From Candidatus Methylacidiphilales bacterium (GTDB lineage: Bacteria > Verrucomicrobiota > Verrucomicrobiia > Methylacidiphilales > CAZTYG01): a DNA stretch of 64,000 nucleotides. The stretch lies in contig JANRJG010000041.1 of assembly GCA_033875315.1 (NCBI GenBank), forward strand, positions 1-64,000, written 5' to 3'. The notes under the pieces were generated by a model that was given only the letters and a program-made list of their open reading frames with translations, was not told where the DNA came from and searched no databases. This document shows positions 5,040-22,238 of the stretch, in pieces (the first letter of the stretch is position 1; every line of letters starts with the position of its first letter). A program made the translations under genes and the position numbers.

Positions 5040-6353
5040 TCAAACCTTGATCTTCATGTTCAGACGCATGAAAGTGGGGACATCGAGGTCTTCACCATCC
5101 ACCATGGTTGGCTCGGTGTTTTCGAATATTCCCCGCTGCCTTCTCTGGTCCAGCGGCAGTTCTTCCTGTCTGGCAAAGTATCGTTGCGGCGTCTCGCCTT
5201 CTTCCTCCGCATCCAGTCGGAAGAGGGAATCGGCCGGTTCGACAGCAACACTTTCTTCCTCCTGACCCTTGTCTTCCAGGACATCAAGTTCGGGCACGCC
5301 GGCCATGATCTCATCGGCCTTGTCGACCAGGGTGTCCGCCTGGGCGATGTCGCCTGACCCGGCGGACAAAAGAACCGTGATCTGGAGGCGGTCATGGGCT
5401 TTGGCCTCCATCGTTGCACTGCCCCGGACCGGAATATCGACCGGGATGAGCGCCTGGAGGGACTTGACCACTTTATGGTATTCCGACACGGTGAAATCCG
5501 GGCCGGCCACCACACTCAGGAGGGCGGATTCGGCCAGTTTCCACGCATCGCCATCTTCCAACAAGGGGCTGGCCATCACTTGCTCGAGGGCGCGGTCGAT
5601 CCGGTCGGGGCCGCTGGCACTCCCCGAGCCCACCCAGCAGTTTTCCAGGCAGGCTGAGCCCACATAGTCGCGCATCTCGGACAGGGAGAGCGGGGAAGTT
5701 CCGTTTTCGCACACAAGTCGCTGGATTCCCGTGCAGGCCCGCCCCATCAAGGCATTCATGTGGCGGAAGACTTCCCGGATATCCTCCTTGGATTCGGGCA
5801 GATGCAGCAGACGTCCGTTGGAAAAGGTCAGCAGCAAATCGCACTCCCGCTGAAGATCGGCCAGAACAGCGGTCGCAAGGTCGCGGCGACGGCGGCCCTC
5901 GAATTCAAATGGTGTCGAGGCCAGGACAATGGTGCGAACGCCACGCTGCCGCAGTTCACGCGTCCAGACCGGCAACAAGCCGGTGGCGGTTCCCCCGCCC
6001 AACCCGGCAGCGAAAATCACCGTGCGGATGCCCGCCATCTGGCCGAGAAAGGCCTCCATCTCCCAAAGAGCAAGGTCCACGCCCAAGTCGCGATCCCCGC
6101 CGGTCCCGAGTCCGCGCAAGCGGCTTCTTCCCATGAGGTGTTTGTGGGGCGCCACTGAGCCGCGAATTTTCTGGTCGTCGGCATCGAAGGCAAAGACATT
6201 TTTCCAAGTGCTGTTTTCGAGCACGAGGTGGTCGACGATGTTGACCCCGGCCGAACCGACGCCGACGATGGCGTAGCCGGACCCGTCCCCGGCCCGCGGG
6301 ACTGCGAAGGGGCCGTCTTCTTTGAACTGGATCATGTTCTTGTCCTTTTTCAT
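5040..6353 (-). CDS. ftsZ: Divergent FtsZ, last gene of the dcw operon
   Basis: 437 residues from the ATG at 6353; a later ATG at 6335 has the better ribosome site (AAGGA, 7 bases upstream) and a TTG at 6371 is possible. Tubulin/FtsZ fold by position and by GVGSAGVN (31-38), AAGLGGGTATG (115-125), TPFEFEG (147-153) and GSGSASGPDR followed by ASPLLED (242-267). The tail EDLDVPTFMR (421-430) matches the conserved C-terminal peptide that binds FtsA. Odd features: the tubulin signature is GGGTATG, not GGGTGTG, and the synergy loop reads SPLSLSEMR (220-228), so by my alignment the residues equivalent to E. coli N207, D209 and D212 are P, S and E. Very likely the division tubulin, with altered GTPase chemistry. 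Confidence 0.9.
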   Translation of the reverse strand: MKKDKNMIQFKEDGPFAVPRAGDGSGYAIVGVGSAGVNIVDHLVLENSTWKNVFAFDADDQKIRGSVAPHKHLMGRSRLRGLGTGGDRDLGVDLALWEMEAFLGQMAGIRTVIFAAGLGGGTATGLLPVWTRELRQRGVRTIVLASTPFEFEGRRRRDLATAVLADLQRECDLLLTFSNGRLLHLPESKEDIREVFRHMNALMGRACTGIQRLVCENGTSPLSLSEMRDYVGSACLENCWVGSGSASGPDRIDRALEQVMASPLLEDGDAWKLAESALLSVVAGPDFTVSEYHKVVKSLQALIPVDIPVRGSATMEAKAHDRLQITVLLSAGSGDIAQADTLVDKADEIMAGVPELDVLEDKGQEEESVAVEPADSLFRLDAEEEGETPQRYFARQEELPLDQRRQRGIFENTEPTMVDGEDLDVPTFMRLNMKIKV

Positions 6354-6377: not shown

Positions 6378-7616
6378 TCAGAGCAAATTCATGGCCGAGA
6401 GCAAGTCCCGGAACGAGCGTCCGATCCGGGCCAGGCCCCGCGGGCGTTCACTCTGGCGCATCACAATCTGGGCGTAGCGCAGCAGGCCCAATACGGTGGA
6501 AAGGTCGGAGCGGCGGTTGTAGGTCTGGTCCCCTTCGAACCGGAATTCATTCACCACCGAACACGGCACGGGGAAAATCTTGGCCGCCATCGTGCCCAGT
6601 CCCTTCATGCGCGAGGCACCCCCGGTAAAGTATATCTTCGAGCCGATCTGTCCCCACAGTCCCTTGTTTTCCAGATCATTGCGGATCAACTCGAGAATTT
6701 CACGCTGGCGGACGTGGAGGATGTCGGTCACCGATTGCAGCCAGACCGTGCGCTCGGCGAAGCTGTCCTCGCGCGGCAGGGTGATTTTTTCATCCCGCGC
6801 ACGCGGATCAAGGAACAGGTCCCCGTGGCGTATTTTCATTTCTTCGCCCTGCCGGGTCGGCATCTTCAGGCCAAGGGTGAGATCCTGGGTCAGGTGGTCG
6901 CCGCCCAGCCCGATGACGCCCGAATGCACAATGGCACCACCCACGTACACGATGTAATCGGTCACCCCGGCCCCGAGGTCGACCAGGACCGCACCGTTGT
7001 TTTTGTCCTCTGCTGTCAGAACGGATTGCGCGGACACATAGGAGGCCAGGGCCACCCCCGCCACTTCGACTCCAAGCTCGGCCACACAGCGCACTTGGGT
7101 TTCGAGGCAGGTGCGGAGCCCGTGCACCAGATGGTAACCGGCTTCCAGGCTCCGTGAACTGAGTCCGACCGGATCGGTTGTGCGCGTGCGATTATCGAGG
7201 TGGTAGAACTGCAACAATTCATGCACCAATTCATGGTCGGACGGGATCGGGCTTTGGAAGGCCATTTCGCCCAAGGTCTGGATGTGCTCCGGAGTGACCG
7301 TGCCTTCCTCCTCCTCGATCGAGGTGCGGACCATGACATTGCGGGAACACAGATGTGTGCCACTGACGGACAGGAATACCTGGCCGATTTCAACCTCGGT
7401 TTTTTGTTCGGCATCGAGCAATGCCGCTTTGACGGCTTCCTGTGCCCGGTTGAAGTCACGGATCAATCCTTTGCGCACGCCAACAGCGTTGGATTCCCCC
7501 ACCCCGAGCAGGGCGAGCGAGCCATCCTGCCGGAGTTCGGCCACAGCCACGGCCACCTTGTGGGTTCCGATTTCCAGTGCGGCAATCACCTCGGGTTCAT
7601 TTTTCCAGAATATCAT
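6378..7616 (-). CDS. ftsA: Cell-division protein FtsA
   Basis: 412 residues, an actin-like ATPase. Visible are the first phosphate loop (ALEIGTHKVAVAVAE, 13-27), the SHS2/1C region with GTHLCSRN (about 86-93), the second phosphate loop VDLGAGVTDY (about 215-224), and an adenosine motif YFTGGASRMKG (about 330-340). The C-terminal segment LARIGRSFRDLLSAM is amphipathic and fits the membrane-targeting helix. FtsA tethers FtsZ polymers to the inner membrane and recruits later divisome proteins. It is followed 24 bases later by ftsZ and preceded by ftsQ (15-base gap), the standard ftsQAZ order. Confidence 0.95.
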   Translation of the reverse strand: MIFWKNEPEVIAALEIGTHKVAVAVAELRQDGSLALLGVGESNAVGVRKGLIRDFNRAQEAVKAALLDAEQKTEVEIGQVFLSVSGTHLCSRNVMVRTSIEEEEGTVTPEHIQTLGEMAFQSPIPSDHELVHELLQFYHLDNRTRTTDPVGLSSRSLEAGYHLVHGLRTCLETQVRCVAELGVEVAGVALASYVSAQSVLTAEDKNNGAVLVDLGAGVTDYIVYVGGAIVHSGVIGLGGDHLTQDLTLGLKMPTRQGEEMKIRHGDLFLDPRARDEKITLPREDSFAERTVWLQSVTDILHVRQREILELIRNDLENKGLWGQIGSKIYFTGGASRMKGLGTMAAKIFPVPCSVVNEFRFEGDQTYNRRSDLSTVLGLLRYAQIVMRQSERPRGLARIGRSFRDLLSAMNLL

Positions 7617-7631
7617 GGGACTCCTTGCGGG

Positions 7632-8492
7632 TTAGAAGTAGGTCACCGGAACGTTGCGCTCCGGGGTCAGGTCGACCGTTCGTACAAAAAGGTTGTTCTC
7701 CCGGGCATGGTCCAGGATGACCCGCAGGCGCTGGATCTGTTCCTGGAGGTAGTCGGTGCGGAAACAAATCATGCCCTGGTCGCGCGTCCGCAAAATCAGG
7801 TATCCCCGGCTCTGGACCTCGATCTCGGTCAGGTCGAGTTCGCTCTTGAGCGTGGTGTAGTCGGCCAGACGCAGGAGATTGAGCGCACCCAGCAATTCGG
7901 CCCGTTCCGTCCGCTCGCCCTCGCGGATGTATTCATGGGCCACTCCTTTGATCACCGGCAGGGGCTTCAGCCGCTCACCGGCTTTGGGCCGCATGACGTA
8001 GCCCTGCCCATCGACATAGTACACCGACTGCGCGAGTTGGTGACCGGCGCTGGAGTAGGGCAGCAGCTTGGCCATCGGTTGTCTCTCGACCACTTCGATG
8101 CGGAGGGTCGAAGGAAGGCGGCGTTCGATCACTACAGAAGCGATGTAAGGCATTCGCTGGAGTCGCTCACGGACGTCGGGCAGTTTCAGGATCATCAGGT
8201 TGCTCCCCATCCGCACTCCGGCCCATTCGATGACCTCGGAGCGGCTCACCCCTCCGGTGACCTTGATTTCGATGTTTTTGATCTGAAAGTCGTCGTTCCG
8301 GAAAAAGGCGTGGTGGAGGATGCTGCGCGTGGCGAAATGGGTGCCCAAGGCGATGACCCCGAGCACCACGACCCCGATCCCGACCATGGTCAGATGCCCC
8401 TGCAATTTCTTGTTCTGCGTGCGCTGGTGGACTTCGGCCAGCAGAACATGGCGTTTATTGCGACGCGGCCCGCGCGATCCGAAACGGCTCAT
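7632..8492 (-). CDS. ftsQ: Cell-division protein FtsQ/DivIB
   Basis: 286 residues from the ATG at 8492, which overlaps the ddl stop codon in ATGA; the open frame runs further upstream but that part is antisense to nothing useful and overlaps ddl. A basic cytoplasmic N-terminus (FGSRGPRRNKR) is followed by one membrane helix (about 35-55, VGIGVVVLGVIALGTHF), then a POTRA domain (FQIKNIEIKVTGGVSRSEV) and the FtsQ beta domain. In the divisome it links FtsL/FtsB and the FtsWI synthase in the periplasm. The sequence is divergent, as is usual for FtsQ, but topology and position are decisive. Confidence 0.9.
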   Translation of the reverse strand: MSRFGSRGPRRNKRHVLLAEVHQRTQNKKLQGHLTMVGIGVVVLGVIALGTHFATRSILHHAFFRNDDFQIKNIEIKVTGGVSRSEVIEWAGVRMGSNLMILKLPDVRERLQRMPYIASVVIERRLPSTLRIEVVERQPMAKLLPYSSAGHQLAQSVYYVDGQGYVMRPKAGERLKPLPVIKGVAHEYIREGERTERAELLGALNLLRLADYTTLKSELDLTEIEVQSRGYLILRTRDQGMICFRTDYLQEQIQRLRVILDHARENNLFVRTVDLTPERNVPVTYF

Positions 8493-9382
8493 CGGCGTGC
8501 CTCCAGCGAAAGTTCCACGATGCGGCGGCAAAGTTCCGGGAAGGAAATGCCATCGGCGGCGGCGGCCTCTGGAAAGAGACTCAGGTCGGTCATGCCGGGG
8601 AGCGCATTCAGCTCGAGCACCACTGGTGCACTTCCGTCGTCGGGCAGGATGACATCGACCCTCGCATACACACTGCAGCCCACGGCCCGGTAGGCAGCGG
8701 CGGCGGCAGCTTCCACCGAAGCACGCTCTTCCGGCGTGAGAGGGGCCGGACATAGGTGCTGGGTCCGTCCCGCCGTGTATTTGTTGGTGTAATCGTAAAA
8801 TCCTTCGAGCGGGCGCATCTCCACCACGGGCAATGGTCGGCCATCCAAAAGGCCGACAGTCAACTCGCGCCCGGCGATGAATTCTTCCACCATCATGGGC
8901 CTGCCAAATGCCGCGGCGGCCTCACGGGCCTGCTCCACTTCCCCGTCCGTCCGGGCGATGGATACACCCACGCTCGATCCATCCGCCACCGGTTTGAGCA
9001 CGAAGGGCGCGGGCCATTCCGTCTCCGGCGTCCACGCGCCACCCCTCGCAATGCGCACACCACCTTGTTGGAATTTTTCCCGCGCCAAAAGCTTGTCAAA
9101 GGACAGACGACAGGCCTCGGCTCCCGGGCCGGTGTAGATCCTGCCCGCTTCATCCAACCGGCGCTGCAACATCCCGTCCTCACCGAATGTTCCATGCAGA
9201 CCAATGAACAACACCCGCCCGGGTGCCGGCAGATCAAAGGCAACGGTCGTGATGTCCAGCTCGTCCACTTCGCATCCCGCCTCCCGAAGGGCACGGGCCA
9301 CAGCCGCACCGGAACGCAAGGACACCTCACGCTCCGAGGATATACCGCCTTTCAGGACGGTGATGGGTGGGAGTGGGTTCAT
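8489..9382 (-). CDS. ddl: D-alanine--D-alanine ligase
   Basis: 297 residues, the short (DdlB-like) length. ATP-grasp enzyme with a start VLKGGISSEREVSLRSG, the HGTFGEDG segment (about 64-71), the ATP lysine segment FVLKPVADGSSVGV, a VEEFIAGREL motif, and the metal/substrate end VVLELNALPGMTDLS. It joins two D-alanines for the peptidoglycan stem. The ATG overlaps the stop of murC-murB by 4 bases, and its own stop overlaps ftsQ, so translation is coupled. Confidence 0.96.
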   Translation of the reverse strand: MNPLPPITVLKGGISSEREVSLRSGAAVARALREAGCEVDELDITTVAFDLPAPGRVLFIGLHGTFGEDGMLQRRLDEAGRIYTGPGAEACRLSFDKLLAREKFQQGGVRIARGGAWTPETEWPAPFVLKPVADGSSVGVSIARTDGEVEQAREAAAAFGRPMMVEEFIAGRELTVGLLDGRPLPVVEMRPLEGFYDYTNKYTAGRTQHLCPAPLTPEERASVEAAAAAAYRAVGCSVYARVDVILPDDGSAPVVLELNALPGMTDLSLFPEAAAADGISFPELCRRIVELSLEARR

Positions 9383-11658
9383 GTCACATCCTCCCCGACG
9401 ACCTGGACTTCCAGTTCCAGTTCTATCCCTCGCTCCTTGAGGGCGGTTTCACGGATTTCCCCAATGAGCGTCAGCATGTCCGAGGCCGTCGCACCACCGT
9501 CGTTGACCAGGAAGTTGGCATGAACGGGTGATACACGGGCTCCACCCACCCGGCGGTCCTTAAGACCCAGCTCATCGATCAAACGTCCAGCCGGTATGGA
9601 GTCGGTGTTTTTGAACGTGCAGCCCGCACTGGGGGCTGCCGGCTGGGAGTCCCACCGCTTGCGGCTGTAAGCCGCCAGTCGCGCCTCGATTTCCGAGGGG
9701 GCCTCCGGCCTGCCCAGCAAAGTTGCTCCAAGGACAATGTGATTTTGCAAGAGCGGCACGTGCCGGTAACCGGCCTCGATTTTTTCCCGGGGCAGTTCAA
9801 ACACCTTCCCCCCCAGATCCATCAAACGTACGGACTCAACCACCTCGAACATCCAGGATTGCATCGCCCCCGCGTTCATCTTCAGTGACCCGCCGAGATT
9901 GCCAGGAATCCCTTCCATGAATTCCATTCCTGCCAGGCCGTGTTTTTTGGCCATGTAGGCGATCTCACGCAACCGGACCCCGGCCCCGGCAACCAGGCGG
10001 CCGTTCTCCACCCGCAGACCCGTGAATGCCGCACGTCCCAAGTGGAGGCACAGCCCGCGGATGCCGCCATCGCGCACCAGGAGGTTGCTGCCCCGGCCGA
10101 TGACGGTCACGGGAATACCCTCGGAACGGCAACAGGCCAGGACGCGGGACAATTCTTCCTCACTCGTAGGCTCCAGCCACATTTGGGCCGGCCCTCCGAC
10201 CCGCAGGGTGGTGTGTTTGCGCATGGGTTCGAAGCAGCGGAACACCGAGGCGGATTCCAGATGGGGGCGCAACAGATCGGCTTGCTTCAGGTCGGCGGCT
10301 ATCTGCCCGGCCACCAGATGAACGTTCCCAGCCCCCATGGTCACCAACACATCGCCGGGGACGAGTTGCTCGGCCACCAAGGCCTTTGCGTGCTCAAGAT
10401 TCCAGGCAAAGAGGGGTTTATCACGGTGTCCTGATCCCTCGCAGAGTGTCCGTGCGGACAACCCGGTGGGATTGTCTTCACCCGCGCCATATATCTCTGT
10501 CACCACGACCCGGTCGGCATCTTCGAAGGCGTTCGTGAACTGGCCGAGAAGATGGGCCGTGCGCGAATAACGGTGCGGCTGAAAGAGGGCCAGCACGCGC
10601 TTGCGCGGTAGTCGGCGGGCCGCTGCGAGCGTCGCGCGGATCTCCGAAGGATGGTGTGCATAGTCGTCGACGATGTGATAGTCCTGGCCAAGGTAACGGG
10701 TTTCAAACCGGCGTCCGGGGCCCACCAAGGCGGCCAGGGCCCGCTGGCAGTCGCCGAATTCCACATCAAGCGAGAGCGCAACCGCAATCACTCCGAGGGC
10801 ATTGCTGACGTTGTGGCGTCCGGGCAGGGACAAGGTGATGTCACCAAGGACGCGTTCGCGGTGGTGGACGGTGAAGCGTGACATCCCTGCCGCCAAATCG
10901 ATCCCGGTGGCGCGAAAGTCGGCATCATGGTCGAGGGCGTAGGATATGGAAAGGGGGTTGGCCGGAGCCAGAAGGCGGCACACGGGATCATCGGCACAAA
11001 GCACCGGAACCCGGTCCACACGGGAAATGACCCCGCGGAAGGTTTCGACGATTGCGGCGAAATTTCCATAGTGGTCGAGGTGGTCCTCTTCGATGTTCAG
11101 CACGAGTGCGGCATGGGGCTGGTAGCAGGCGATGGTTCCATCGCTCTCGTCCGCTTCGACCACGACTTCCGGACCGGTACCGAGGGCGGCATTGCGGCCG
11201 AGGGACGGTACTTCGGCTCCGATATAATAGCCCGGGTCTCGCCCTGCTTCCATGAAGAGACGGGAGAGCATCAGACTCGACGTGGTTTTACCATGCGTGC
11301 CGGCGACCAGGATGGCCTTTCTGGATTGGATAAGGTTCGCCAGCATTTCCGCCCTTTTTAGGACGGGCACCCTGTTTTGTACAGCGTAAATTAGCTCCGA
11401 ATTGTTCGTACGGATCGCCGAGGAATAAACCACGATATCAGCGGAGCGCACCGCCCCGGGCTCGTGGTCCTGTTGGAACAGCATGCCCCGCTCCTCCAGC
11501 GCACGCACCGCCGTTCCTCGTTGGAGGTCGGATCCGCTGACCCGGCAACCGGCATCCAGGAGCATGTGGGCCAGCGCGCTCATGCCGCTGCCTCCGACAC
11601 CAAGAAGGTGCACCCGACTGCCCGGACCGGGGGGCTTGATTTTTTCAGAAGAGGGCAT
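9379..11658 (-). CDS. murC-murB: MurC-MurB fusion: UDP-MurNAc--L-alanine ligase / UDP-GlcNAc-enolpyruvate reductase
   Basis: 759 residues from the ATG at 11658, 14 bases inside murG. The first half (about 1-455) is MurC: Rossmann start HLLGVGGSGMSALAHML, ATP loop VAGTHGKTTSS (about 109-119), EADESDGT, and NIEEDHLDHYG. The second half (about 470-759) is MurB: FAD-binding segment LRVGGPAQ, VIGRGSNLLVRDGG, IPGNLGGSLKMNAGA, and SAGCTFKN carrying the catalytic serine/cysteine region; its length fits the compact type of MurB. MurB makes UDP-MurNAc and MurC adds L-alanine, so the fusion couples two consecutive steps. No stop or frameshift separates them. Confidence 0.95.
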   Translation of the reverse strand: MPSSEKIKPPGPGSRVHLLGVGGSGMSALAHMLLDAGCRVSGSDLQRGTAVRALEERGMLFQQDHEPGAVRSADIVVYSSAIRTNNSELIYAVQNRVPVLKRAEMLANLIQSRKAILVAGTHGKTTSSLMLSRLFMEAGRDPGYYIGAEVPSLGRNAALGTGPEVVVEADESDGTIACYQPHAALVLNIEEDHLDHYGNFAAIVETFRGVISRVDRVPVLCADDPVCRLLAPANPLSISYALDHDADFRATGIDLAAGMSRFTVHHRERVLGDITLSLPGRHNVSNALGVIAVALSLDVEFGDCQRALAALVGPGRRFETRYLGQDYHIVDDYAHHPSEIRATLAAARRLPRKRVLALFQPHRYSRTAHLLGQFTNAFEDADRVVVTEIYGAGEDNPTGLSARTLCEGSGHRDKPLFAWNLEHAKALVAEQLVPGDVLVTMGAGNVHLVAGQIAADLKQADLLRPHLESASVFRCFEPMRKHTTLRVGGPAQMWLEPTSEEELSRVLACCRSEGIPVTVIGRGSNLLVRDGGIRGLCLHLGRAAFTGLRVENGRLVAGAGVRLREIAYMAKKHGLAGMEFMEGIPGNLGGSLKMNAGAMQSWMFEVVESVRLMDLGGKVFELPREKIEAGYRHVPLLQNHIVLGATLLGRPEAPSEIEARLAAYSRKRWDSQPAAPSAGCTFKNTDSIPAGRLIDELGLKDRRVGGARVSPVHANFLVNDGGATASDMLTLIGEIRETALKERGIELELEVQVVGEDVT

Positions 11659-12742
11659 CTTCCACCTCCCTGGCCACCCGCGCGGCGGCCCCGCCTGTTT
11701 GGAATTTTCCTGCGGCACTGGCCATGACTTCGCGTCGTCCGGGTTCTTCCATCAATTCCCTGATCCAACGGGCCAGGGCGGACGAACCTTCGTCGTTTTC
11801 GCGGGCCACCCTGGCCGCGCCCCCCTTGGCGTAGGCCTGGGCGTTGCGTGTCTGGTGGTCTTCCGCCGCATGTGGATACGGAACCAGGAATGAGGGCAGG
11901 CGGTAAAAGGCCAATTCGGTCAGGGAGGAGGCTCCGGAGCGGGCGACCACCGCGTCGGCCAGGCTGTAGACAGTTTCCATGCGGTCGCAAAAATCGCGGA
12001 CTTCGGCCCGGATGCCGTCACGCTGGTAGTTGTAATGGAGCAAATTGACATCCTGCGGTCCGGCCAGATGGATGATCTGGATTTTGTCGGACAGGTTCTT
12101 CCATTCAGCCGCGGCACGCGCCACCAATCGGTTCAGGCCAGCGGCTCCCTGGCTACCGCCCATGACCGCGATGGTGAATCGGTCGGGATCCAGGCCCCAT
12201 TCGGCGGCTGCCTCGCGCCGGTCCATGACCTTCAGGGTTGAACGAACCGGAGTTCCGGTGACCTTCAGGACCGAGGCTTCAAGATGGGCCGCGCACTCCG
12301 AGAAGCCCAGGAGGACCCGGGTGCTGCGGGAAGCCATCCAGCGGGTGACCTTGCCAGGAATGGCGTTGGATTCATGCAGAAGAGTCGGGATACGACGCCT
12401 TGAGGCGGCCAGCAGGATCGGGGCCGAGGTGAACCCCCCCATCCCCAGGACCGCGTCGGGGGTGTATTCACGCAGTTCGGCAACCGACTGGCGATAAGCC
12501 TTCCAGAAGGCCACGAAAAACGAGGGCGTGCGCGGGCCGAGCCCCGGCCATCCTAACACAGGTAGAGCCACTCTTTCAAATTCGGGGTAGGCCGCGAGCG
12601 CGCGGCGGTCGATTTCCTTGTTCGAAACATACAGCCGCACCTGGTGGCCGGACCGGCGCAGTTCCTCGGCCACTGCCAGTCCAGGGAACAGGTGCCCGCC
12701 GGTTCCCCCACATGCGATGCAGATTCGGGCCGAGGTGCTCAC
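11645..12742 (-). CDS. murG: MurG lipid II synthase (UDP-GlcNAc transferase)
   Basis: 365 residues starting at a GTG at 12742 that overlaps the ftsW stop (GTGA). The N-terminal Rossmann motif CIACGGTGGHLFPGLAVAEEL, the middle GGFTSAPILLAA, then GGSQGAAGLNRLV and the acceptor-side RSGASSLTELAFYRLPSFLVPYP with EDHQTRNA are diagnostic. It transfers GlcNAc to lipid I on the cytoplasmic face of the membrane. A longer in-frame extension upstream overlaps ftsW and is rejected. Cotranscribed between ftsW and murC-murB. Confidence 0.96.
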   Translation of the reverse strand: MSTSARICIACGGTGGHLFPGLAVAEELRRSGHQVRLYVSNKEIDRRALAAYPEFERVALPVLGWPGLGPRTPSFFVAFWKAYRQSVAELREYTPDAVLGMGGFTSAPILLAASRRRIPTLLHESNAIPGKVTRWMASRSTRVLLGFSECAAHLEASVLKVTGTPVRSTLKVMDRREAAAEWGLDPDRFTIAVMGGSQGAAGLNRLVARAAAEWKNLSDKIQIIHLAGPQDVNLLHYNYQRDGIRAEVRDFCDRMETVYSLADAVVARSGASSLTELAFYRLPSFLVPYPHAAEDHQTRNAQAYAKGGAARVARENDEGSSALARWIRELMEEPGRREVMASAAGKFQTGGAAARVAREVEDALF

Positions 12743-13878
12743 ATGCGGGCGGATTGTGCCGCCGGGAGAACGCTCCTGTGGCGGCGGGGTTTGAAGGCGG
12801 AGTTGCTGTGGATATTCAGCAGAATGCCCACACCGGCAAGGCAAAGCAGCAGGTTGGAGCCGCCGTAGCTGATGAACGGAAGGCCGATGCCCTTGGCCGG
12901 CACCATGGCGGTGACCACAGCAATATTGAGCGCGGCCTGCAGGCAGATGGCGCAGGTGATGCCAATACCCAACAGCAGGCCGGTGGCATCCGGCGCATGG
13001 CACGCAATCATGCCACCCGACAGGGCGAAGAAGAGGAAGAACAGGACCACACCCAGGGTGAAGATCAACCCGAGTTCTTCACCGATGATCGGGAAAATGA
13101 AATCGTTGTGGGCCTCGGGCAAATAAAACATCTTCTGCACCCCCTCGCCGAGTCCACGGCCGCTCAAGCCACCGGAGCCGAAAGCAATGAGGGCCTGCCA
13201 TACCTGGTATCCCGCGTCCTCCTTGTGGCCCTCGGGATCGAGGAAGGCCAGGAGCCGCGTGCGACGCTCGGGCATGGTCAGGGCCAGGACGAGAATGCCC
13301 ACAAGGCCGAGCACCGGCACCGGGACAATGAATTGCCAGCGGGTCCCGGCGACAAACATCAGAATGAAAGACAGGAGCACGAGGATCGCGGAGGTTCCGA
13401 GGTCCTTTTGCAGGATGCAGAGGCCGATGGCCAGGGCCAACACCCCCATGGGGATGGCGAAACCGTCTTGAAAGCGCGAGACAGTTTTCTGGTGCAAACC
13501 CAACCACCAACCCATGAACACCACCACGGATAGCTTGAGCATTTCCACGGGCTGGAAGTTCATCGGGCCGAGATCGATCCAGCGGCTGGCCCCCTTGACC
13601 TTCACGCCGAGGCCAGGAACAAAACAGGACAGCATGAGCAGCGAAGCCACGCCGACAATCCACCAGGCATAGCGCGTCCAATGCCGGTAATCCCATTTAG
13701 CCAGCAAGACGCATACGACCACCCCGGCCGCAAGCGCGGCGGCCTGACGTTTGAGAAAAAAGGCCTGGTCGCCATTGTTGGCCGGGGCAAAAGCGCTCAC
13801 ACTGGACAACATCACCAGCCCAAGGGAGACCAACCCCAGGACGGCGATGAGGAGGAAGTAAGCACTGTTGCGGGCCAT
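12739..13878 (-). CDS. ftsW: FtsW, septal SEDS glycosyltransferase
   Basis: 379 residues, about ten membrane helices. SEDS-family motifs include KGASRWIDLGPMNFQPVEMLKL (middle), LQKDLGTS, and near the end AKGIGLPFISYGGSNLL. With the FtsI transpeptidase it polymerises lipid II at the septum. SEDS glycosyltransferase activity and the PBP partner are established for the family. It ends in a GTGA overlap with murG and starts 11 bases after the LysM gene. The conserved acidic residue in the KEDAGYQVWQAL to AHNDFIFPIIGEELG region is retained, as in active SEDS proteins. Confidence 0.95.
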   Translation of the reverse strand: MARNSAYFLLIAVLGLVSLGLVMLSSVSAFAPANNGDQAFFLKRQAAALAAGVVVCVLLAKWDYRHWTRYAWWIVGVASLLMLSCFVPGLGVKVKGASRWIDLGPMNFQPVEMLKLSVVVFMGWWLGLHQKTVSRFQDGFAIPMGVLALAIGLCILQKDLGTSAILVLLSFILMFVAGTRWQFIVPVPVLGLVGILVLALTMPERRTRLLAFLDPEGHKEDAGYQVWQALIAFGSGGLSGRGLGEGVQKMFYLPEAHNDFIFPIIGEELGLIFTLGVVLFFLFFALSGGMIACHAPDATGLLLGIGITCAICLQAALNIAVVTAMVPAKGIGLPFISYGGSNLLLCLAGVGILLNIHSNSAFKPRRHRSVLPAAQSARM

Positions 13879-13889
13879 GGCAGGACGGG

Positions 13890-14792
13890 TCAGTTCTTGG
13901 GAACCATCGCCATGTCCGTATTGACCGGGGCGGGTTCGGGACGGGACGGGGGTTGGGCCAAATCCTGTTTTTCCACACCGCCCGGAAGACGGAGCACCAT
14001 GCCCACCTTGAGCTTGGAGGGATCCGTTATCCCATTGGAGTTGGCGAGTTGCTGGGGATTGACATTGAACTTACGGGCGATTTTCCAGAGGGTATCCCCC
14101 TTGCCAACGGTATAGCTGCCTCCCACCACTTCGGCGCGTCGCACAACAGGCGCAGCCTGCGGAGGCAAAGCCGGGGCGGCTGAAGCCGCGACCGTACGGC
14201 CCGCCGGAATCCGGATCACTTGACCGATGCGGATGGTGTCATTGGTCATGCCATTGACGGAACGAAGGTCGGCCACCGATACCCCATAGTTGCGGGAGAT
14301 ACGGGCCAGTGAATCCCCTTTGGCCACGGTGTAGGTTTTATTGCTGTCGACCGTCTGCACATTGGCCGGCTTTTCACTGGCAACGACAGGTGCCGGATTC
14401 GGAGCCGGGTTGGCAATGGCGGGCCGCTCGGTGGTTGACGGAACGCGCGTCCAAATCGGGTCATTGCTGGCCGGCATGGGCAGCGGCGCGGCTTCCGCCG
14501 GGACGGGTTCTGCCTCTGCCGGGGAAGGGCTGGGAGCGGTCCCGGCCTGCTGAGTTTCCACGGTGGGATGTTCCTCCGTGGCAGCCCAGGCGGGCTCATC
14601 TGCGTTCGGGCTTTTTTCGGTGGTGCTGCTGACTTCCTCTACCGGTTTTTCGCTCGAGGAATCCCCCTTGAGCAGGTGGTAGGCACTGAAGGCAACGATC
14701 AGCACAATGTGCAGTCCGAGGACCACGAGGAAAATCGTGGATAGTTTGCTCCCACCCATCGGGGCAGGCTTGGGGTTCTGGTTTTCATTCAT
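13890..14792 (-). CDS. Membrane-anchored double-LysM protein within the dcw operon
   Basis: 300 residues: short cytoplasmic N-terminus, one membrane helix (about 19-40, IFLVVLGLHIVLIVAFSAYHLL), a proline/alanine/glutamate-rich periplasmic linker (about 45-150), then two LysM domains (about 152-197, YTVAKGDSLARISRNYGVS; and about 227-270, YTVGKGDTLWKIARKFNVN), and a short tail. LysM binds glycan strands, so the protein probably ties the inner membrane to nascent peptidoglycan. No catalytic domain is visible. Its place between murD and ftsW implies a division or wall-synthesis role. Confidence 0.85.
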   Translation of the reverse strand: MNENQNPKPAPMGGSKLSTIFLVVLGLHIVLIVAFSAYHLLKGDSSSEKPVEEVSSTTEKSPNADEPAWAATEEHPTVETQQAGTAPSPSPAEAEPVPAEAAPLPMPASNDPIWTRVPSTTERPAIANPAPNPAPVVASEKPANVQTVDSNKTYTVAKGDSLARISRNYGVSVADLRSVNGMTNDTIRIGQVIRIPAGRTVAASAAPALPPQAAPVVRRAEVVGGSYTVGKGDTLWKIARKFNVNPQQLANSNGITDPSKLKVGMVLRLPGGVEKQDLAQPPSRPEPAPVNTDMAMVPKN

Positions 14793-14840
14793 GGTCTTTT
14801 ATTCTCCTGTTGTTTTGTTGGTTTGTTAGAAGTTCTTGAT

Positions 14841-16157
14841 TCAGGCCAGATCTTTCACGAGCTCACGGAACAACTGCCCGCGTTCCTCGAAATTTTTGAA
14901 CATGTCGTAACTGGAGCACCCGGGTGAGAGCAGCACAGTCTGACCGGGACGGGCCAAGCGTCGCGCGGTCTGCACCGCATCGGCCAGATCCACGGCCCGA
15001 TGACAGCGGGTGCGCTGCCCCCAGGCCTCGACCATGCGCGACTGCGCCTCGCCGATCAGAACCGCATGGGCCACATGGCGCCCGACCAGGTCCTTGATGG
15101 CGGCATAGTCAAATCCCTTGTCCTTGCCGCCCGCGATCAGAACACAGGGTGTGCTCATTCCCTGGAGGGCACTTTCGAGGGAGTGAAGGTTGGTGGCCTT
15201 GGAGTCATTGACGTAGTCCACCCCTTCGATTTGGCGGACCAGTTCACAACGATGCGGCAGGGCACGGTAAGAGGCGAAGACGCCCGCGACTGTTTCATGG
15301 TCGATACCGTAGAGGTCGCCCAGCGCCAGCGCGGCCAGTTGGTTTTCAGCATTGTGAGGCCCGCGCAGGCTGGTCTTGGATTGCTCGATGATCTTCTTGT
15401 CATGGCGGCAGAGCCAGCCGTCGCGGAATGTGTATTCGGCCTCGCGGCCATACGCATTGAAAGTGATCCGGCGGGCCGCCAGAAACGGAAGGGACAGATC
15501 CGAATTGACCAGGGCGAAGTCATCAGGCCCCTGATTTTCAAAGATGCGCAGCTTGGCTTTCCAATACTCGTCCATATCGCGGTAACGGTCGAGATGGTCG
15601 GGGGCAAAGTTTAGGAAAACGGCCATTCTTGGACGGAAGGTTTCAATGGCCTCCAATTGGAACGAACTCACTTCCAAGGTGATCACATCCAGGTCCTCGG
15701 CGTTCCGGGCCACATCACTGAAGGGCTTGCCAATGTTGCCACATGCCTCGGTCCGCTTTCCCCCTGCGGTCAAGACGGCGGCGATGAGCTCGGTGGTCGT
15801 GCTTTTGCCGTTCGTGCCGGTGATGGCGACCACGGGTTTTTCGCAGAAACGGAAGGCCAGTTCTATTTCCGAGATGATCGGCACCTTGTCTGCGCGGAGT
15901 TGGCTGACCAGGGGCACGGAAGGATCGATACCAGGGCTGAGGACACCCAGATCAATACGGCACGGATGAAAAGGCCGGGGCTGGACCTCCACCCGCACAC
16001 CCTGGGGACGGAGCCGCTCAGCGACGCGCTCGATCCTCTCGTTCATTTTGCTATCTCGTATGATCACATCCGCTCCTTTCGTTACCAACAATTCGGCCGC
16101 AGCCCTTCCGCTTTCTCCCATGCCAAGGACCACGACCTGTTTTCCAGTCACATTCAC
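14841..16157 (-). CDS. murD: UDP-MurNAc-L-Ala--D-glutamate ligase
   Basis: 438 residues from a GTG at 16157, six bases after mraY. N-terminal UDP-binding VVLGMGESGRAAAELL, ATP loop AITGTNGKSTTTEL (about 109-122), GNIGKPFSDVA, EVSSFQLE, the metal-binding FLNFAPDHLDRY, the LPHRCELV segment, VNDSKATN, and the C-terminal LLSPGCSSYDMFKNFEERG are all hallmarks of MurD. It adds D-glutamate to UDP-MurNAc-L-alanine in the cytoplasm. 48 noncoding bases separate it from the LysM gene, the widest gap in this part of the operon. Confidence 0.97.
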   Translation of the reverse strand: MNVTGKQVVVLGMGESGRAAAELLVTKGADVIIRDSKMNERIERVAERLRPQGVRVEVQPRPFHPCRIDLGVLSPGIDPSVPLVSQLRADKVPIISEIELAFRFCEKPVVAITGTNGKSTTTELIAAVLTAGGKRTEACGNIGKPFSDVARNAEDLDVITLEVSSFQLEAIETFRPRMAVFLNFAPDHLDRYRDMDEYWKAKLRIFENQGPDDFALVNSDLSLPFLAARRITFNAYGREAEYTFRDGWLCRHDKKIIEQSKTSLRGPHNAENQLAALALGDLYGIDHETVAGVFASYRALPHRCELVRQIEGVDYVNDSKATNLHSLESALQGMSTPCVLIAGGKDKGFDYAAIKDLVGRHVAHAVLIGEAQSRMVEAWGQRTRCHRAVDLADAVQTARRLARPGQTVLLSPGCSSYDMFKNFEERGQLFRELVKDLA

Positions 16158-16163
16158 GTTTTT

Positions 16164-17264
16164 TCATCTCAGTTTGAGGGTGGCCAGGCCGATGAGGGCC
16201 AGAACCAGGCCGGCGATCCAGAATCGGATCACCACGGTGGATTCATTCCAGCCCTTGAGTTCGAAATGGTGGTGCAGGGGCGACATGGCGAAGATGCGCT
16301 TGCCCGTAGTTTTGAACGAGGCCACTTGAAGGATGACGGAGAGGGCCTCGATGACGAATACCCCGCCGACAATGACCAAAAGCAGTTCCTGGTTGACGCA
16401 GATAGATACCAAAGCGATGGCGCCACCAATCGCCAGCGATCCGGTGTCCCCCATGAAAACCCGGGCCGGGTGGCAGTTGTACCACAGGAAACCAAGGCAG
16501 GAACCGGCCATGGCCGCACAGAAGACCGATAATTCCCCAACACCTGGGGCATAGGGAAGCAGGAGGTAGTCCGAGGCAATCTTATTGCCGGATAGGTAGG
16601 CAAAGATGGCAAAGACCGAGACCACACTGACGGTGCAACCTGTGGCCAGGCCATCCAACCCGTCCGTCAAATTCACGGCGTTGCTGGAGCCGACGATGAC
16701 CAGGGCAAAGAAGATCAAGGCGAACGGGCCAAGATTGTCCACCACCGGGGTCTTGAAGAAAGGCAGTTGCAGGCTCCGCGCATGTTCCCTTGTTTCCGGG
16801 TGGTAGATCAAAAAGATCCCGACCGCCACCGCAATGAGCACCTGCCCGAGGAATTTTTGCCTGCTGCTGATGCCACCGGAATTCTTTTTGCGGATCTTCT
16901 GGTAGTCGTCGAGAAAACCCAGTCCGCCAAAGGCCAGGGTGGGCACGAGCACGACCCAAAGATACAGCCCGTCCAAGCGGGCCCAGAGCAGGCAGCCGAG
17001 GGTGAGGGAGACCAGAATGAGCAGCCCACCCATGGTCGGGGTGCCCTTCTTGCTTCCGTGCAGTTCGGCCAGCTTGTGTACTTCCTCTTTGCCCCGGATC
17101 GGTTGGCCCAGTTTCAACCGGGTCAGGGCCGCGATCATTTTTGGACCGGACCAAAGGGTGAAAACAAAGGTGCTTACAGCGGCAGCGATCGCCCGGAAAG
17201 TCAGGGCCTCAAAGACCCGCAGCGGTCCGATCCATTCGGCCAAGTGGTGAAGGTAGTAGAGCAT
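16164..17264 (-). CDS. mraY: MraY phospho-MurNAc-pentapeptide translocase
   Basis: 366 residues with about ten membrane helices. Signature motifs: KKGTPTMGG, the catalytic FLDDYQKIRKKNSGG, NAVNLTDGLDGLATG, and HHHFELKGWNE near the C-terminus. It transfers phospho-MurNAc-pentapeptide from UDP to undecaprenyl phosphate, making lipid I. The ATG directly abuts the murF stop (TGAATG) with no gap. Confidence 0.97.
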   Translation of the reverse strand: MLYYLHHLAEWIGPLRVFEALTFRAIAAAVSTFVFTLWSGPKMIAALTRLKLGQPIRGKEEVHKLAELHGSKKGTPTMGGLLILVSLTLGCLLWARLDGLYLWVVLVPTLAFGGLGFLDDYQKIRKKNSGGISSRQKFLGQVLIAVAVGIFLIYHPETREHARSLQLPFFKTPVVDNLGPFALIFFALVIVGSSNAVNLTDGLDGLATGCTVSVVSVFAIFAYLSGNKIASDYLLLPYAPGVGELSVFCAAMAGSCLGFLWYNCHPARVFMGDTGSLAIGGAIALVSICVNQELLLVIVGGVFVIEALSVILQVASFKTTGKRIFAMSPLHHHFELKGWNESTVVIRFWIAGLVLALIGLATLKLR

Positions 17265-18638
17265 TCAGTTCTCCAGATTGGGCAGGATTTTTTCCATCTC
17301 GGCGCTCCGCGAACCTTTGACGACCACACGGTCATCATCCCGGGCGGTCTCCAGGTAGCCCCGGACCAGGGATTCGTGGTCATTCCAGACCGAGACGTTT
17401 TCCATCCCCCGCGATTTTGCGCCCTCGACCAAGTCGTCGGCCCCGTGCCCAATGGCGTGGAGACAGCGGATACCCGCATCGGCGGCGGCGGCTCCGACCC
17501 AATGGTGCAATTCGCCGGTCCTTATGCCCAATTCGCCCATGCTGCCCAGAAGGGCGACACCACGGCCCTTGCCGGGCAGGGCCATGAGGGTGGCGAATGC
17601 CGCCGCCATAGAGTCGGGATTGGCGTTGTAAGAATCATCCATGATCCAGCCGGACCGCCTTTTCCGGAGGGCCATGCGGCCTTTCGGCAAGCAGGCTTCC
17701 TCCAGACACGCACGGATCAGTTCCGGAGCTATTCCTAGCCGGACCGCCACCGCCACTGCCAGTGCCGCATTATGTGCCATATGGCTGCCCGGGACCCGGA
17801 TGGTGAATCGTTCTATTCGATTTCCTATTTGGACATCGAACGAGGAGCGCTCCGGTTGCACAACGATTCCGCTTATTTGGAAAGTGTTGTCCGGGCCTGA
17901 ACCCACCCAGGCGACGGGAACCGGGATCCGAGGGGCCAGTGCCCTCAGTCGTGGATTATCCCCCTGCAATACGGCAAATCCATTCTCGGGCAGATGGTAG
18001 GCCACCTCGCCTTTTTCCGCCGCTATGGCCTCGCGATCGGAGAAATGTTCGATGTGCGCCCAACCGGCCTGGGTGATCACGCCGATTTCCGGCCGGGCCA
18101 TTTCAACCAGCGGGCGAATTTCCCCGGGATGGTTCATGCCCATTTCCACCACCGCCCAATGGTGGGATTCGTCGATTTGGAGAAGGGTCAGGGGCACACC
18201 GATGTGGTTGTTCAGATTGCCCGACGTCTTGGCAACCGGTCCCAAGGGAGCCAGGACGGAAGACAGGAATTCCTTTGCACTGGTTTTTCCGTTGCTGCCG
18301 GTGACCGCCACCACGCGGACACCAAGACTTTGTCGGTAATGCGTGGCAAGTTTTTGCAGGCCCCGGAGGGTGTCATCGACCCGGATGACCCCACAGCCCG
18401 CGACCAAGGCACTGGGCGGGATTTCGCGGGATACCATCACCGCCAGCGCGCCCTGCCGGAACGCATCCGCGACGTAATCATGTCCATCGAAACGTTCCCC
18501 GGACAAAGCGACAAAAAGATCGCCCGGAAGGATGGCACGAGAGTCGGTCGTCACACGCGTCACGGTGCGCTCACCCTGTCCGTGGGCGAGGACTCCGCCA
18601 GACCATACGGCCAGACTGGAAAACGGGATCGGTTTCAC
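17265..18638 (-). CDS. murF: UDP-MurNAc-tripeptide--D-Ala-D-Ala ligase
   Basis: 457 residues if started at the GTG at 18638, which overlaps the murE stop as GTGA and has AGGGGG a few bases upstream; a GTG two codons earlier is the alternative. Mur ligase motifs: TTDSRAILPGDLFVAL near the start, ATP loop AVTGSNGKTSAKEF, EMGMNHPGEI, MAHNAALAVAV, and DDSYNANPDSM, typical of MurF. It completes the pentapeptide using the dipeptide made by Ddl. Part of the same coupled chain. Confidence 0.96.
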   Translation of the reverse strand: MKPIPFSSLAVWSGGVLAHGQGERTVTRVTTDSRAILPGDLFVALSGERFDGHDYVADAFRQGALAVMVSREIPPSALVAGCGVIRVDDTLRGLQKLATHYRQSLGVRVVAVTGSNGKTSAKEFLSSVLAPLGPVAKTSGNLNNHIGVPLTLLQIDESHHWAVVEMGMNHPGEIRPLVEMARPEIGVITQAGWAHIEHFSDREAIAAEKGEVAYHLPENGFAVLQGDNPRLRALAPRIPVPVAWVGSGPDNTFQISGIVVQPERSSFDVQIGNRIERFTIRVPGSHMAHNAALAVAVAVRLGIAPELIRACLEEACLPKGRMALRKRRSGWIMDDSYNANPDSMAAAFATLMALPGKGRGVALLGSMGELGIRTGELHHWVGAAAADAGIRCLHAIGHGADDLVEGAKSRGMENVSVWNDHESLVRGYLETARDDDRVVVKGSRSAEMEKILPNLEN

Positions 18639-20101
18639 GCGCACCCCCTTTGCCGGAGGGCCGCACGGGCCTGCTCCGCATCCGAAAAGGGAGTGAGGAC
18701 ACCCTTCACCTCCTGCGTGTTTTCGTGGCCCTTACCAGCCAATACGACCACGTCTCCCTCTTTGGCCAGGCTGATGATATGCGCGATGGCCGCCGCGCGA
18801 TCGGCCACGACTTCGTAGCCTTCCATGCCGGAGACTCCTCTCTCCATGTCGCGGAGTATGGCGGCGGGGTCTTCGCCCCGCGGGTTGTCCGACGTGAGCA
18901 CGGCCCAATCAGATTGTTCAACGGCCGCCCGGGCCATCAATGGTCGTTTGCCACGGTCGCGGTCCCCGCCACAACCGACCAGCACCAGCAGCCGGCCACG
19001 ACATAGCGGGCGCAGGGTCGACAGAACATGACGAATGGCATCGTCCGTGTGGGCGTAATCGACCAGGACAGAAAAACCACCAGTGGAGGGTATGCGCTCC
19101 ATGCGACCGGGAACGGGCGGGGCAGTCCGGAGTGAAGCCGCAACATGATCCGGCGCCAGGCCAAAGGCGCACGCGGCAGCGGCGGCGGCCAATGCGTTGG
19201 CGACATTGAAGCCTCCGACCCAGGGCATGACGACCTCATGTTCGAAGGCCGGTCCCTTCCACTTGAAAGTGGTCCCGGAAGCATGGAGGCAAACGTCCGT
19301 CGCTTGATGTTCGGCGGCCGCACCAAGGGAATAGCCGTGCAGATGCACGCCCGCGGGAAGCATCCCGGCCAGGCGCAGGCCGGCCCCGTCATCGAGGTTG
19401 ATCACGGCATGGCTTCCGTGCCGCAAGCTGGTGAAGAGCTTGGATTTGGCTTGGAAGTAGTTCTCCATCGAGCCGTGATAGTCCAGATGGTCCTGGGTGA
19501 GGTTGGTGAATACAGCCACTTCGAAACCCAGTCCCAGGGTGCGTTCTTGGTCCAGTGCGTGCGAAGAGACCTCCATGACCGCGGCCCGGCAATTTTCGTC
19601 GCGCATTTGGGCCAAGAGGCGTTGGAGGTCGAGGCATTCCGGTGTTGTGCGCGGAGACGCCATTTCTTTTTTGCCCGAGCGATAACAAATCGTACCCATC
19701 AGACCCGAACTGATTCCGGATGTTTCGAGGAGGTGATGGAGCAGATAGGCGGTCGAGGTTTTCCCGTTCGTGCCGGTGATCCCGGCAAGCCGGAGGGATG
19801 CCCCCGGATTCCCATACCAGCGGGACGAGGCACCCGCCAGGGCCCGGCGACCACTGGCCACCCTAACTTGGGGGACGGACGGGGCGGGATCCGCTTTCTC
19901 CTCGACCACGACGGCGGCAGCCCCCCGTTCCACGGCCAGACTCACGTAGCGGTGTCCGTCGGACTTGAGTCCCTTCCAAGTGAAGAAGGCATCACCGGGG
20001 TTGACCTCGTCCGCTCGGTAGGCCAGTCCGGAAACGGAGGCTTCTTTGGGACCGGACCACTCCAGCACTTCCAGTCCACTGAACAGGTCGCGCAGGGTCA
20101 T
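18635..20101 (-). CDS. murE: UDP-MurNAc-dipeptide--2,6-diaminopimelate ligase
   Basis: 488 residues. Motifs: ATP loop GITGTNGKTSTAYLL (about 108-122), EVSSHALDQERT, NLTQDHLDYHG, VDYAHTDDAIRHVL, GCGGDRDRGKRP, and DNPRGED (DNPR at about 405-408). DNPR is the recognised signature of ligases that use meso-diaminopimelate rather than lysine, so the wall is predicted to be DAP type. The ATG overlaps the ftsI stop by 4 bases and the end overlaps murF. Confidence 0.97.
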   Translation of the reverse strand: MTLRDLFSGLEVLEWSGPKEASVSGLAYRADEVNPGDAFFTWKGLKSDGHRYVSLAVERGAAAVVVEEKADPAPSVPQVRVASGRRALAGASSRWYGNPGASLRLAGITGTNGKTSTAYLLHHLLETSGISSGLMGTICYRSGKKEMASPRTTPECLDLQRLLAQMRDENCRAAVMEVSSHALDQERTLGLGFEVAVFTNLTQDHLDYHGSMENYFQAKSKLFTSLRHGSHAVINLDDGAGLRLAGMLPAGVHLHGYSLGAAAEHQATDVCLHASGTTFKWKGPAFEHEVVMPWVGGFNVANALAAAAAACAFGLAPDHVAASLRTAPPVPGRMERIPSTGGFSVLVDYAHTDDAIRHVLSTLRPLCRGRLLVLVGCGGDRDRGKRPLMARAAVEQSDWAVLTSDNPRGEDPAAILRDMERGVSGMEGYEVVADRAAAIAHIISLAKEGDVVVLAGKGHENTQEVKGVLTPFSDAEQARAALRQRGCA

Positions 20102-21879
20102 GGCTCCCTCCTGCTGGCCACTATGGCCCGGCTGGCGGCGGTCTGCGGGGCGGTCAGATTCAGGACTTGGACCACACCGGTGGCGATATTGCGGAAGGCA
20201 GGCGCGGCGACAGAGCCCCCGTAGATCTTCTCCCCCTCGGCGTCATCGACCACGATGGAGATCACCACCTCGGGTTTTTCCGCCGGCATGAAGCCAATGA
20301 ACGAGGAATAATAGCTGCCTTTTTCATAGCTGCCCTCGACAAACTTGCGTGATGTCCCGGTCTTGCCGGCCACGGTGAAAACATCCAAAGGTTTGGGTAG
20401 TTGTGCTTCCTTGCCCGTTCCGGTGGCCACCACCTCGCACATGGCCCGCGTGACCCGACGGGCCACATCCTGCGATACCGTCTGGCGGATGACCCGCGGA
20501 AGGAATTGTTTGACCACCTTGCCCTCCCCGTCGGTCACGGCCTGGACCAGATGCGGCTCCATCAACTTGCCCCCGTTGGCGATGGCCCCCACCGCGGCCG
20601 TCATCTGCAGGTTGCTGGTGGAAATTTCGTAACCAATGGGAACGCGGGTCTGGGATATTTTTGTCCAGCTTTGCGGGGGACGCAGGATTCCTTTTTGTTC
20701 CCCGCGCAGTGCCTGAACCGGGCTCTGTACCAGCTCACCGAACCCAAACTGGCGCAGGTAGCGGTAGATGCGCGAGTCGCCCAGCAGGAGTCCGATCTTG
20801 GCGAAGGCGATGTTGCTCGACTTGGCAAAGCCGTCTATGGTCCTTAGCGATCCGTAAGGGTGGACATCGGTCAACTCATGTCCGGCATACCAGAAACTGC
20901 CGTTGTCACAGAAGACCGGGGTGTCGAGGTCGACCACTCCCTCGCTGAGGGCGGCGGCCAGGGTGAAGATCTTGAAGGTGGAACCGGGCTCATAGAGATC
21001 GAGGATGGCGGCATTGCGGATGTTTTCCGGCTTCATCGTGGCACGGTCGTTGGGATCGTAGGTCGGACGATTGGTCAGGCCGAGGATTTCCCCGGTATCG
21101 GGGCGCATGACGATGATGTGCACGGCATCCGGATGAAATTCCGAAACGAGACGCTCGGCCTCGGTCTCAATGACGTGCTGCACACCCTGGTCGATGGTGA
21201 GGACGACGTTGAGCCCGTTGCGCGGCGGGCGGTCGTATTGGCGGTAGCCCGGGATTTCCTTGCGGCGGCCGTCGCGGACGATCCGGCGTTCGCCCGGGAT
21301 ACCGCAGAGGTATTTGTCCATGACCAACTCGATGCCGTCCATGCCCTTCTCGATCTCGACCGGGGCGCGCCATTCGGGGCTCTTCTGCTCGGTGGCGTTG
21401 GCAAACCCGATGACATGGCTGGCCTCGTGGGAATTCGGATAGACCCTCAACTGGCGGTCCCGGAAAATCAGTGACTTGGGCCGCAGGGCGCGCAGCGCAG
21501 TCTCGGCGGAATCGGGCAGGTCGCGGACGAGGAGCTGGTCGCGCCGTTCGGGGAAAAGATAGGCGGCAAGCTGGTTTTCTTCCCAGCCGAGGGCCTGGGC
21601 GATGGCGCTTTTTTCTTCCGGACGTTCCAAGGCAACCTTGCCATCGATGCGCAGGTCGGTGACCGTGATGGTCTGGGCCAAGACCCGCCCCTTGGCATCG
21701 AGGATGGCTCCGCGGCGGGGTGCGGTCGGCACGACGTCGGTGTGCATGCGCACGGCCTTTTCACGATAGTCCTCGTGGCTGACCAACTGGACGTAGATCA
21801 GCCTGGCGGAAATGGCGGTAAAGCCGCAGGCGAAGATCAGGATCACCACCAGGGCCCGGAATTGCAGGGGGGGTGTCAT
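20098..21879 (-). CDS. ftsI: FtsI/PBP3-type septal transpeptidase
   Basis: 593 residues. One N-terminal membrane helix (about 8-28), a PBP-dimer domain starting after RRGAILDAKGRVLA (about 56-69), then the transpeptidase domain with active-site GSTFKIF (Ser300, Lys303), SSN (354-356) and KTGTS (506-510). It cross-links septal peptidoglycan together with FtsW. There is no PASTA domain after the catalytic part, as in Gram-negative FtsI. Overlaps ftsL and murE by 4 bases on each side. Confidence 0.96.
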   Translation of the reverse strand: MTPPLQFRALVVILIFACGFTAISARLIYVQLVSHEDYREKAVRMHTDVVPTAPRRGAILDAKGRVLAQTITVTDLRIDGKVALERPEEKSAIAQALGWEENQLAAYLFPERRDQLLVRDLPDSAETALRALRPKSLIFRDRQLRVYPNSHEASHVIGFANATEQKSPEWRAPVEIEKGMDGIELVMDKYLCGIPGERRIVRDGRRKEIPGYRQYDRPPRNGLNVVLTIDQGVQHVIETEAERLVSEFHPDAVHIIVMRPDTGEILGLTNRPTYDPNDRATMKPENIRNAAILDLYEPGSTFKIFTLAAALSEGVVDLDTPVFCDNGSFWYAGHELTDVHPYGSLRTIDGFAKSSNIAFAKIGLLLGDSRIYRYLRQFGFGELVQSPVQALRGEQKGILRPPQSWTKISQTRVPIGYEISTSNLQMTAAVGAIANGGKLMEPHLVQAVTDGEGKVVKQFLPRVIRQTVSQDVARRVTRAMCEVVATGTGKEAQLPKPLDVFTVAGKTGTSRKFVEGSYEKGSYYSSFIGFMPAEKPEVVISIVVDDAEGEKIYGGSVAAPAFRNIATGVVQVLNLTAPQTAASRAIVASRREP

Positions 21880-22238
21880 GGCCGCCGGGGCGTTCGCGCC
21901 ATCATGGTGTCGGCATTGCGGGCCGGCACCGGGGCGTCATAGACCTTGATGTTGGGGTTGTTGATGTCGACCATGCCGAGGCGGAAGAGGACGATTTGCT
22001 TCTGCAGGGCGGCCGGGCTCTTGCCATGCTGGATCTGCACCATCAGGCCCTGGTTCTTGCGCTTCACATCCTCCAACGAGGATTCAAGCTTTTTGATCTC
22101 TTCGGCCGTGTTGATTATGCGGATCTGCAGGAAGACGAAAACCAGCCCGAAGATCGTGACGAGAATCCCGAGGGCAAGGAGTTTCCACAGGCGAGTGACC
22201 TGGAGGGTGTTGGTGGAACGAACGCGGTTGCGGGCCAT
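21876..22238 (-). CDS. ftsL: FtsL-like division protein
   Basis: 120 residues: basic cytoplasmic N-terminus (ARNRVRSTNTLQVTRLWK), one membrane helix (about 20-40, LLALGILVTIFGLVFVFLQ), then a coiled-coil segment (about 43-75, RIINTAEEIKKLESSLEDVKRKNQGL) and a short periplasmic tail. Topology, size and the position between rsmH and ftsI identify it as FtsL even though sequence similarity in this family is weak. It bridges FtsQ/FtsB and FtsWI. The first codon shares a base with the rsmH stop. Confidence 0.85.
   Translation of the reverse strand: MARNRVRSTNTLQVTRLWKLLALGILVTIFGLVFVFLQIRIINTAEEIKKLESSLEDVKRKNQGLMVQIQHGKSPAALQKQIVLFRLGMVDINNPNIKVYDAPVPARNADTMMARTPRRP

Follow-up and report, generated by a model that had tools for sequence, protein, structure and literature searches.

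The ftsZ gene at 5040..6353 on the minus strand of the window (the whole 64,000-nucleotide stretch of DNA analysed here) encodes an FtsZ in which P221, S223 and E226 stand in place of the canonical N/D/D residues of the T7 (synergy) loop. We consider it probable, at about 0.6, that its host divides with this protein as its one functional FtsZ and that GTP is hydrolysed by a single tubulin-like glutamate, E226, probably slowly. The change is not peculiar to the host genome, a point that the original prediction overlooked: it extends through the order, and FtsZs lacking one T7 acid occur throughout the phylum.

Identity and genomic context of the gene

The reading frame opens with an ATG at 6353, ends with a stop codon at 5040-5042, and specifies 437 amino acids; a conserved methionine, M7 (MIQFKEDG), is a possible alternative start. 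The product matches Tubulin (PF00091, 82 bits) and FtsZ_C (PF12327, 40.4 bits), both above the gathering scores, and these are its only Pfam matches. Against the FtsZ equivalog TIGR00065 it scores 158 bits, below the cut-off of 295.2, which the FtsZ of only 24 of 139 class genomes passes. Many solved FtsZs match it (HMMER, best E 4e-39), and its identity to solved FtsZs is 23-30%. The predicted structure (AlphaFold, pLDDT 72.6, with a high-scoring core) has the FtsZ fold, with Z 35.6 over 303 residues (25-332) against B. subtilis FtsZ (2vam), and all 50 of the structural matches listed are FtsZ.

The C-terminal FtsA-binding peptide, DLDVPTFMR (aa 422-430; 5064..5090, minus strand), is kept in order relatives down to M. 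infernorum. It lies within an extended conserved module, QEELPLD...RGIFEN...DGEDLDVPTFMR (5043..5168, minus strand), recognized from the consensus of relatives (QEELPLD..RGxFEKS..T...GENLDQPTF). The module, of about 40 residues, precedes and includes the peptide and exceeds the usual peptide length; it may serve another binding partner.

The gene closes a dcw cluster that is intact and lies wholly on the minus strand. Directly upstream is ftsA (6378..7616; TIGR01174, 282 bits against a cut-off of 176), followed by ftsQ (7632..8681) and the remainder of the cluster (ddl, fused murC-murB, murG, ftsW, murD, mraY, murE, ftsI and mraW, 8489..23149), with murF expected at 17265-18644. The fused murC-murB is a single gene (window 9379-11718), a fusion also known from V. 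spinosum. The original prediction gave the tail EDLDVPTFMR and the order of ftsA and ftsZ as intact, which is correct, and its view that the protein is still the division tubulin is backed by the fold, the synteny, the tail, and purifying selection in relatives.

A second FtsZ was sought in the host genome, which is 95.65% complete, and none was found: the single PF00091 match is the window gene, and the Tubulin_2/FtsZ-like family (PF13809) has no match anywhere in that genome. MreB gave two strong matches there, and ZapA was looked for and not found. The 62 genomes of the order usually have one PF00091 match each, with two in one genome and none in ten (mostly incomplete). The genome with two is G031 (6.6 Mb), whose ftsZ genes are L017 (G031:C11) and L044 (G031:C50), the latter also with an ftsA match; the canonical T7 loop is absent from both products. 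Elsewhere in the phylum, three genomes from other classes have a second FtsZ/tubulin-like match that is short and very divergent (L222 in G208, L200 in G235 and L220 in G216).

The T7 loop and the GTP pocket

HMMER pairs GTSPLSLSEMR of the window protein with GLMNVDFADVR of Klebsiella/E. coli FtsZ, so that E. coli N207 corresponds to P221, D209 to S223 and D212 to E226, and places a two-residue insertion a few residues beyond. The same pairing is obtained in MAFFT alignments of up to 188 FtsZs. The two programs agree on the P, S, E assignment that had been proposed for this loop, and the proposed insertion is seen in the HMMER pairing. An alternative alignment that would restore N-x-D-x-x-D can be ruled out, since the T7/H8 stretch has just one Asp, D229, which lies three positions beyond E226. 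The loop and the start of H8 (TSPLSLSEMR, aa 219-228) are encoded at 5670..5699 on the minus strand, as placed by HMMER, MAFFT and the predicted structure, in which the changed residues fall in T7 (216-223) and at the start of helix H8 (224-231), in its first turn. The codon for E226, the only acid remaining at the catalytic positions 209 and 212, is at 5676..5678 (minus strand, derived from the translation).

The GTP pocket is kept, with the equivalents of D45, Q47, G71, GGGT, E138, R142, N165 and N186 present. E138 and R142 are found in FEGRRRR (aa 151-157; 5883..5903, minus strand), and N165, a guanine contact, in TFSNGR (aa 176-181; 5811..5828, minus strand). The differences in the pocket are G109A, N43D and T44A. 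Across families, the change of N43 to D goes together with the loss of N207 (Fisher p = 0.002, without tree correction), and it is possible that it compensates for that loss. The tubulin signature in the phosphate-binding T4 loop reads GGGTATG (aa 119-125; 5979..5999, minus strand). This deviation, also pointed out in the original prediction, is real but minor and was rejected as diagnostic, since Ala occurs at that Gly in 26 of the 183 sampled FtsZs of the phylum.

N207 is the K+ ligand of the T7 loop. In some or all sampled members of 11 other families (f10, f12, f16, f17, f27, f29, f30, f32, f35, f37 and f52) Lys or Arg takes its place, as though a positively charged side chain did the work of the ion. 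Such a replacement was rejected as an explanation for the window protein, which has Pro at that position.

Distribution of the T7 residues

FtsZ sequences were taken from samples of the order, class and phylum, and 183 were tallied; the sampling is uneven, some families being represented by one genome only. N/D/D is kept in 16 of the 183, namely in 0 of 41 from the order, 10 of 99 from the rest of the class, and 6 of 43 from the rest of the phylum; for other phyla, the prevalence of N/D/D is taken from the literature (PMC8936486). N207 is kept by no sampled FtsZ of the Methylacidiphilales, the order of the host. Outside the family Methylacidiphilaceae, position 212 is always D or E in the alignable members of the order, and in one family (f5) D209 is also kept. 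In most Methylacidiphilaceae the T7 loop is unalignable; in L032-L042 of that family both it and the domain after H7 have diverged too far to be aligned, with the FtsA-binding tail kept. By family majority, 31 families have an acid at 212 only, 17 at both positions, 16 at 209 only, and one at neither. In a genome of the same genus as Verrucomicrobium sp. BvORR034, probably that of V. spinosum, the T7 sequence is PGIVRMGIADL, that is, N207R with D209G. The order-wide FtsZ alignment offers no stretch conserved enough to serve as a query, and a single-protein scan of genome contigs found no relative; a scan with FtsZs of the Verrucomicrobium type returned named loci.

The two acids do not appear to change independently. 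By parsimony, D209 and D212 have each changed at least 15 times. Independent losses should have made double losses common, whereas both acids are lost in 5 of 175 alignable sequences. The two positions are associated at the family level (Fisher p = 3e-5), and a four-state model on the FtsZ gene tree, which is deep and of limited support, prefers dependence, with the two losses mutually exclusive (LRT 25.4). The rate of loss is about 0.55-0.63 with the other acid present and 0.03-0.09 once the other acid is gone. The T7 columns were excluded in building the tree, and the T7 states of Methylacidiphilaceae, whose loop is unalignable, were treated as missing. Among 60 random column pairs of similar conservation, used as a control, the maximum LRT was 16.6 and the fewest double losses 14, which places the 209/212 pair beyond all of them. 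We rely on this rank, and not on the nominal p of 4e-5, because the control pairs exceed the chi-square expectation. It seems from these comparisons that either T7 acid can be lost, though rarely both, one acid being enough and at least one being required.

Selection and divergence

FtsZ dN/dS ranged from 0.04 to 0.35 among the pairs of order relatives with a usable estimate, and was highest in Methylacidiphilaceae (0.24-0.35). The FtsA values were lower (0.017 and 0.030 in the two pairs tested). The window gene is outside this set, with no dN/dS of its own, because its nearest family (f4) is only 34-39% identical. Judged from the sequences, FtsZ is under purifying selection in the order relatives. 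FtsA is the better conserved of the two proteins in all comparisons within the order; for the closest family the identities are 34-39% for FtsZ vs 50-52% for FtsA. This faster divergence agrees with two earlier accounts. For M. infernorum, Hou et al. (2008; PMC2474590) stated, without data, an "accelerated evolution" of ftsZ, and they also reported a degraded division machinery; in phylogenetic trees the FtsZs of Verrucomicrobiota are among the most divergent (PMC9871819).

A possible mechanism and its alternatives

In S. aureus FtsZ, N208 binds the T7 K+, D210 swings round and so positions the catalytic water, and D213 keeps that water in place (PMC8936486). The T7 loop completes the active site of the neighbouring subunit; in the window protein it would do so with neither the K+-binding Asn nor the water-positioning Asp, leaving one acid, E226. 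We propose that the protein would bind GTP and polymerize head to tail, that E226 alone would hydrolyse the GTP, probably slowly, without a T7 K+ site, and that the long-lived filaments would still recruit FtsA and the septal machinery. E226 is thought to act alone and slowly because the residue of alpha-tubulin at that place is Glu254, whose change to Asp makes hydrolysis about four times slower and whose change to Ala blocks it (PMC7018511). The activity of E254D also implies that D and E both work at position 212. Since D or E is kept there order-wide outside Methylacidiphilaceae (alignable members), and the catalytic residue of alpha-tubulin is Glu, E226 is a conservative change. The slower or different hydrolysis suggested in the original prediction is plausible.

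Slow hydrolysis has precedents. FtsZ84 supports division with about 7% of the wild-type GTPase in vitro (PMC4603965), and natural FtsZs of low GTPase are found in Ca. Thiosymbion oneisti (PMC8953583) and Spiroplasma (PMC11987601), both with the catalytic residues kept. The ftsZ gene is essential in V. spinosum (PMC12283558), and if the N207R/D209G protein is, as is probable, that of V. spinosum, division in that species most probably depends on a T7-altered FtsZ. Counting against slow hydrolysis by E226 is the mutant record. In S. aureus, any one of N208L, D210N and D213N is enough to prevent assembly, and the corresponding E. coli mutants fail to complement (PMC8936486); by that standard an FtsZ changed at all three positions should be dead, any compensation being hypothetical.

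A more radical possibility, which we hold to be doubtful, is that the protein forms a static scaffold, a GTP-bound polymer with hardly any hydrolysis and no treadmilling, septum synthesis proceeding on stable FtsZ. The change of all three T7 residues would fit, as would the behaviour of mutants: E. coli D212G, with GTPase cut about tenfold, still assembles static rings (PMC7320174), and B. subtilis with D213A alongside the wild type still constricts (PMC8079713). The unalignable T7 loop of Methylacidiphilaceae, in proteins that keep the FtsA-binding tail, points the same way. However, the selection against losing both acids implies that hydrolysis, or an acid-dependent assembly, still matters, and there is an acid at 212 in every alignable member of the order outside Methylacidiphilaceae. 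We think it unlikely that a whole order of walled bacteria divides with a non-hydrolysing, non-treadmilling FtsZ scaffold, the T7 loop having gone altogether in Methylacidiphilaceae. Nor is it at all probable that the role of FtsZ is fading and that the lineage is heading for division without FtsZ, as in the sister phyla Planctomycetota and Chlamydiota. The lower conservation of FtsZ than of FtsA, the raised dN/dS in Methylacidiphilaceae, and the account of M. infernorum by Hou et al. (2008) would all suit such decay, but dN/dS is well below 1 throughout, the dcw cluster is whole, neither reading frames nor tails are broken, and V. spinosum depends on its ftsZ.

It is very improbable that the window copy is a paralogue and that division relies on another, canonical FtsZ encoded in a part of the genome missing from the assembly. 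The incompleteness of the assembly and the two genes of G031 leave some room for this, but the window copy follows ftsA in the dcw operon, complete genomes of the order (e.g. M. infernorum V4, G021) each give a single, non-canonical match, and neither G031 copy is canonical. An error of assembly or sequencing in the T7 loop can be given almost no weight. Although the sequence comes from a single assembly of 42 contigs, the 437-residue frame is open, and N207 and D209 are absent from related families in independent assemblies.

Comparison with known systems

That FtsZ is divergent in this phylum is already known. Losses in the T7 loop, or a rule that one acid be kept, find no mention for Verrucomicrobiota in the open-access papers searched, and priority is uncertain. 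N207, D209 and D212 are usually held to be conserved and individually indispensable (PMC8936486), yet most single-copy FtsZs of the phylum are without at least one of them, though almost none is without both acids. The phylum thus amounts to a natural mutagenesis experiment on the need for GTP hydrolysis, the need for treadmilling, and the rebuilding of an active site with one acid, and FtsZ is here seen changing in a phylum that adjoins phyla that have lost it. The one-acid question can be put to the test in V. spinosum, which needs its ftsZ and for which targeted mutagenesis is available.

With the canonical FtsZs of E. coli, B. subtilis and S. aureus, the window protein shares the fold, the GTP pocket, FtsZ_C, the FtsA-binding tail, the place in dcw by ftsA, and the single copy; it differs in having P/S/E vs N/D/D in T7 and in its low identity to solved FtsZs (23-30%). 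Other Verrucomicrobiota FtsZs (Verrucomicrobium/Prosthecobacter etc.) are likewise usually single-copy and mostly without one T7 acid (VRMGIADL, LDFATL), but most keep Asp at 212 or 209, whereas in the window protein position 212 is Glu and position 207 is Pro. The FtsZ of M. infernorum belongs to the same order, also evolves fast and keeps the tail; unlike the window protein, to which it is 25% identical, it has an unalignable T7 loop and is far more diverged. Alpha-tubulin, with E254 as its catalytic residue, resembles the window protein in that the T7/H8 acid that acts in trans is a Glu. N249 and D251 are retained in alpha-tubulin. The window protein, in contrast, has no equivalents of these two residues, and by fold, tail and synteny it is an FtsZ.
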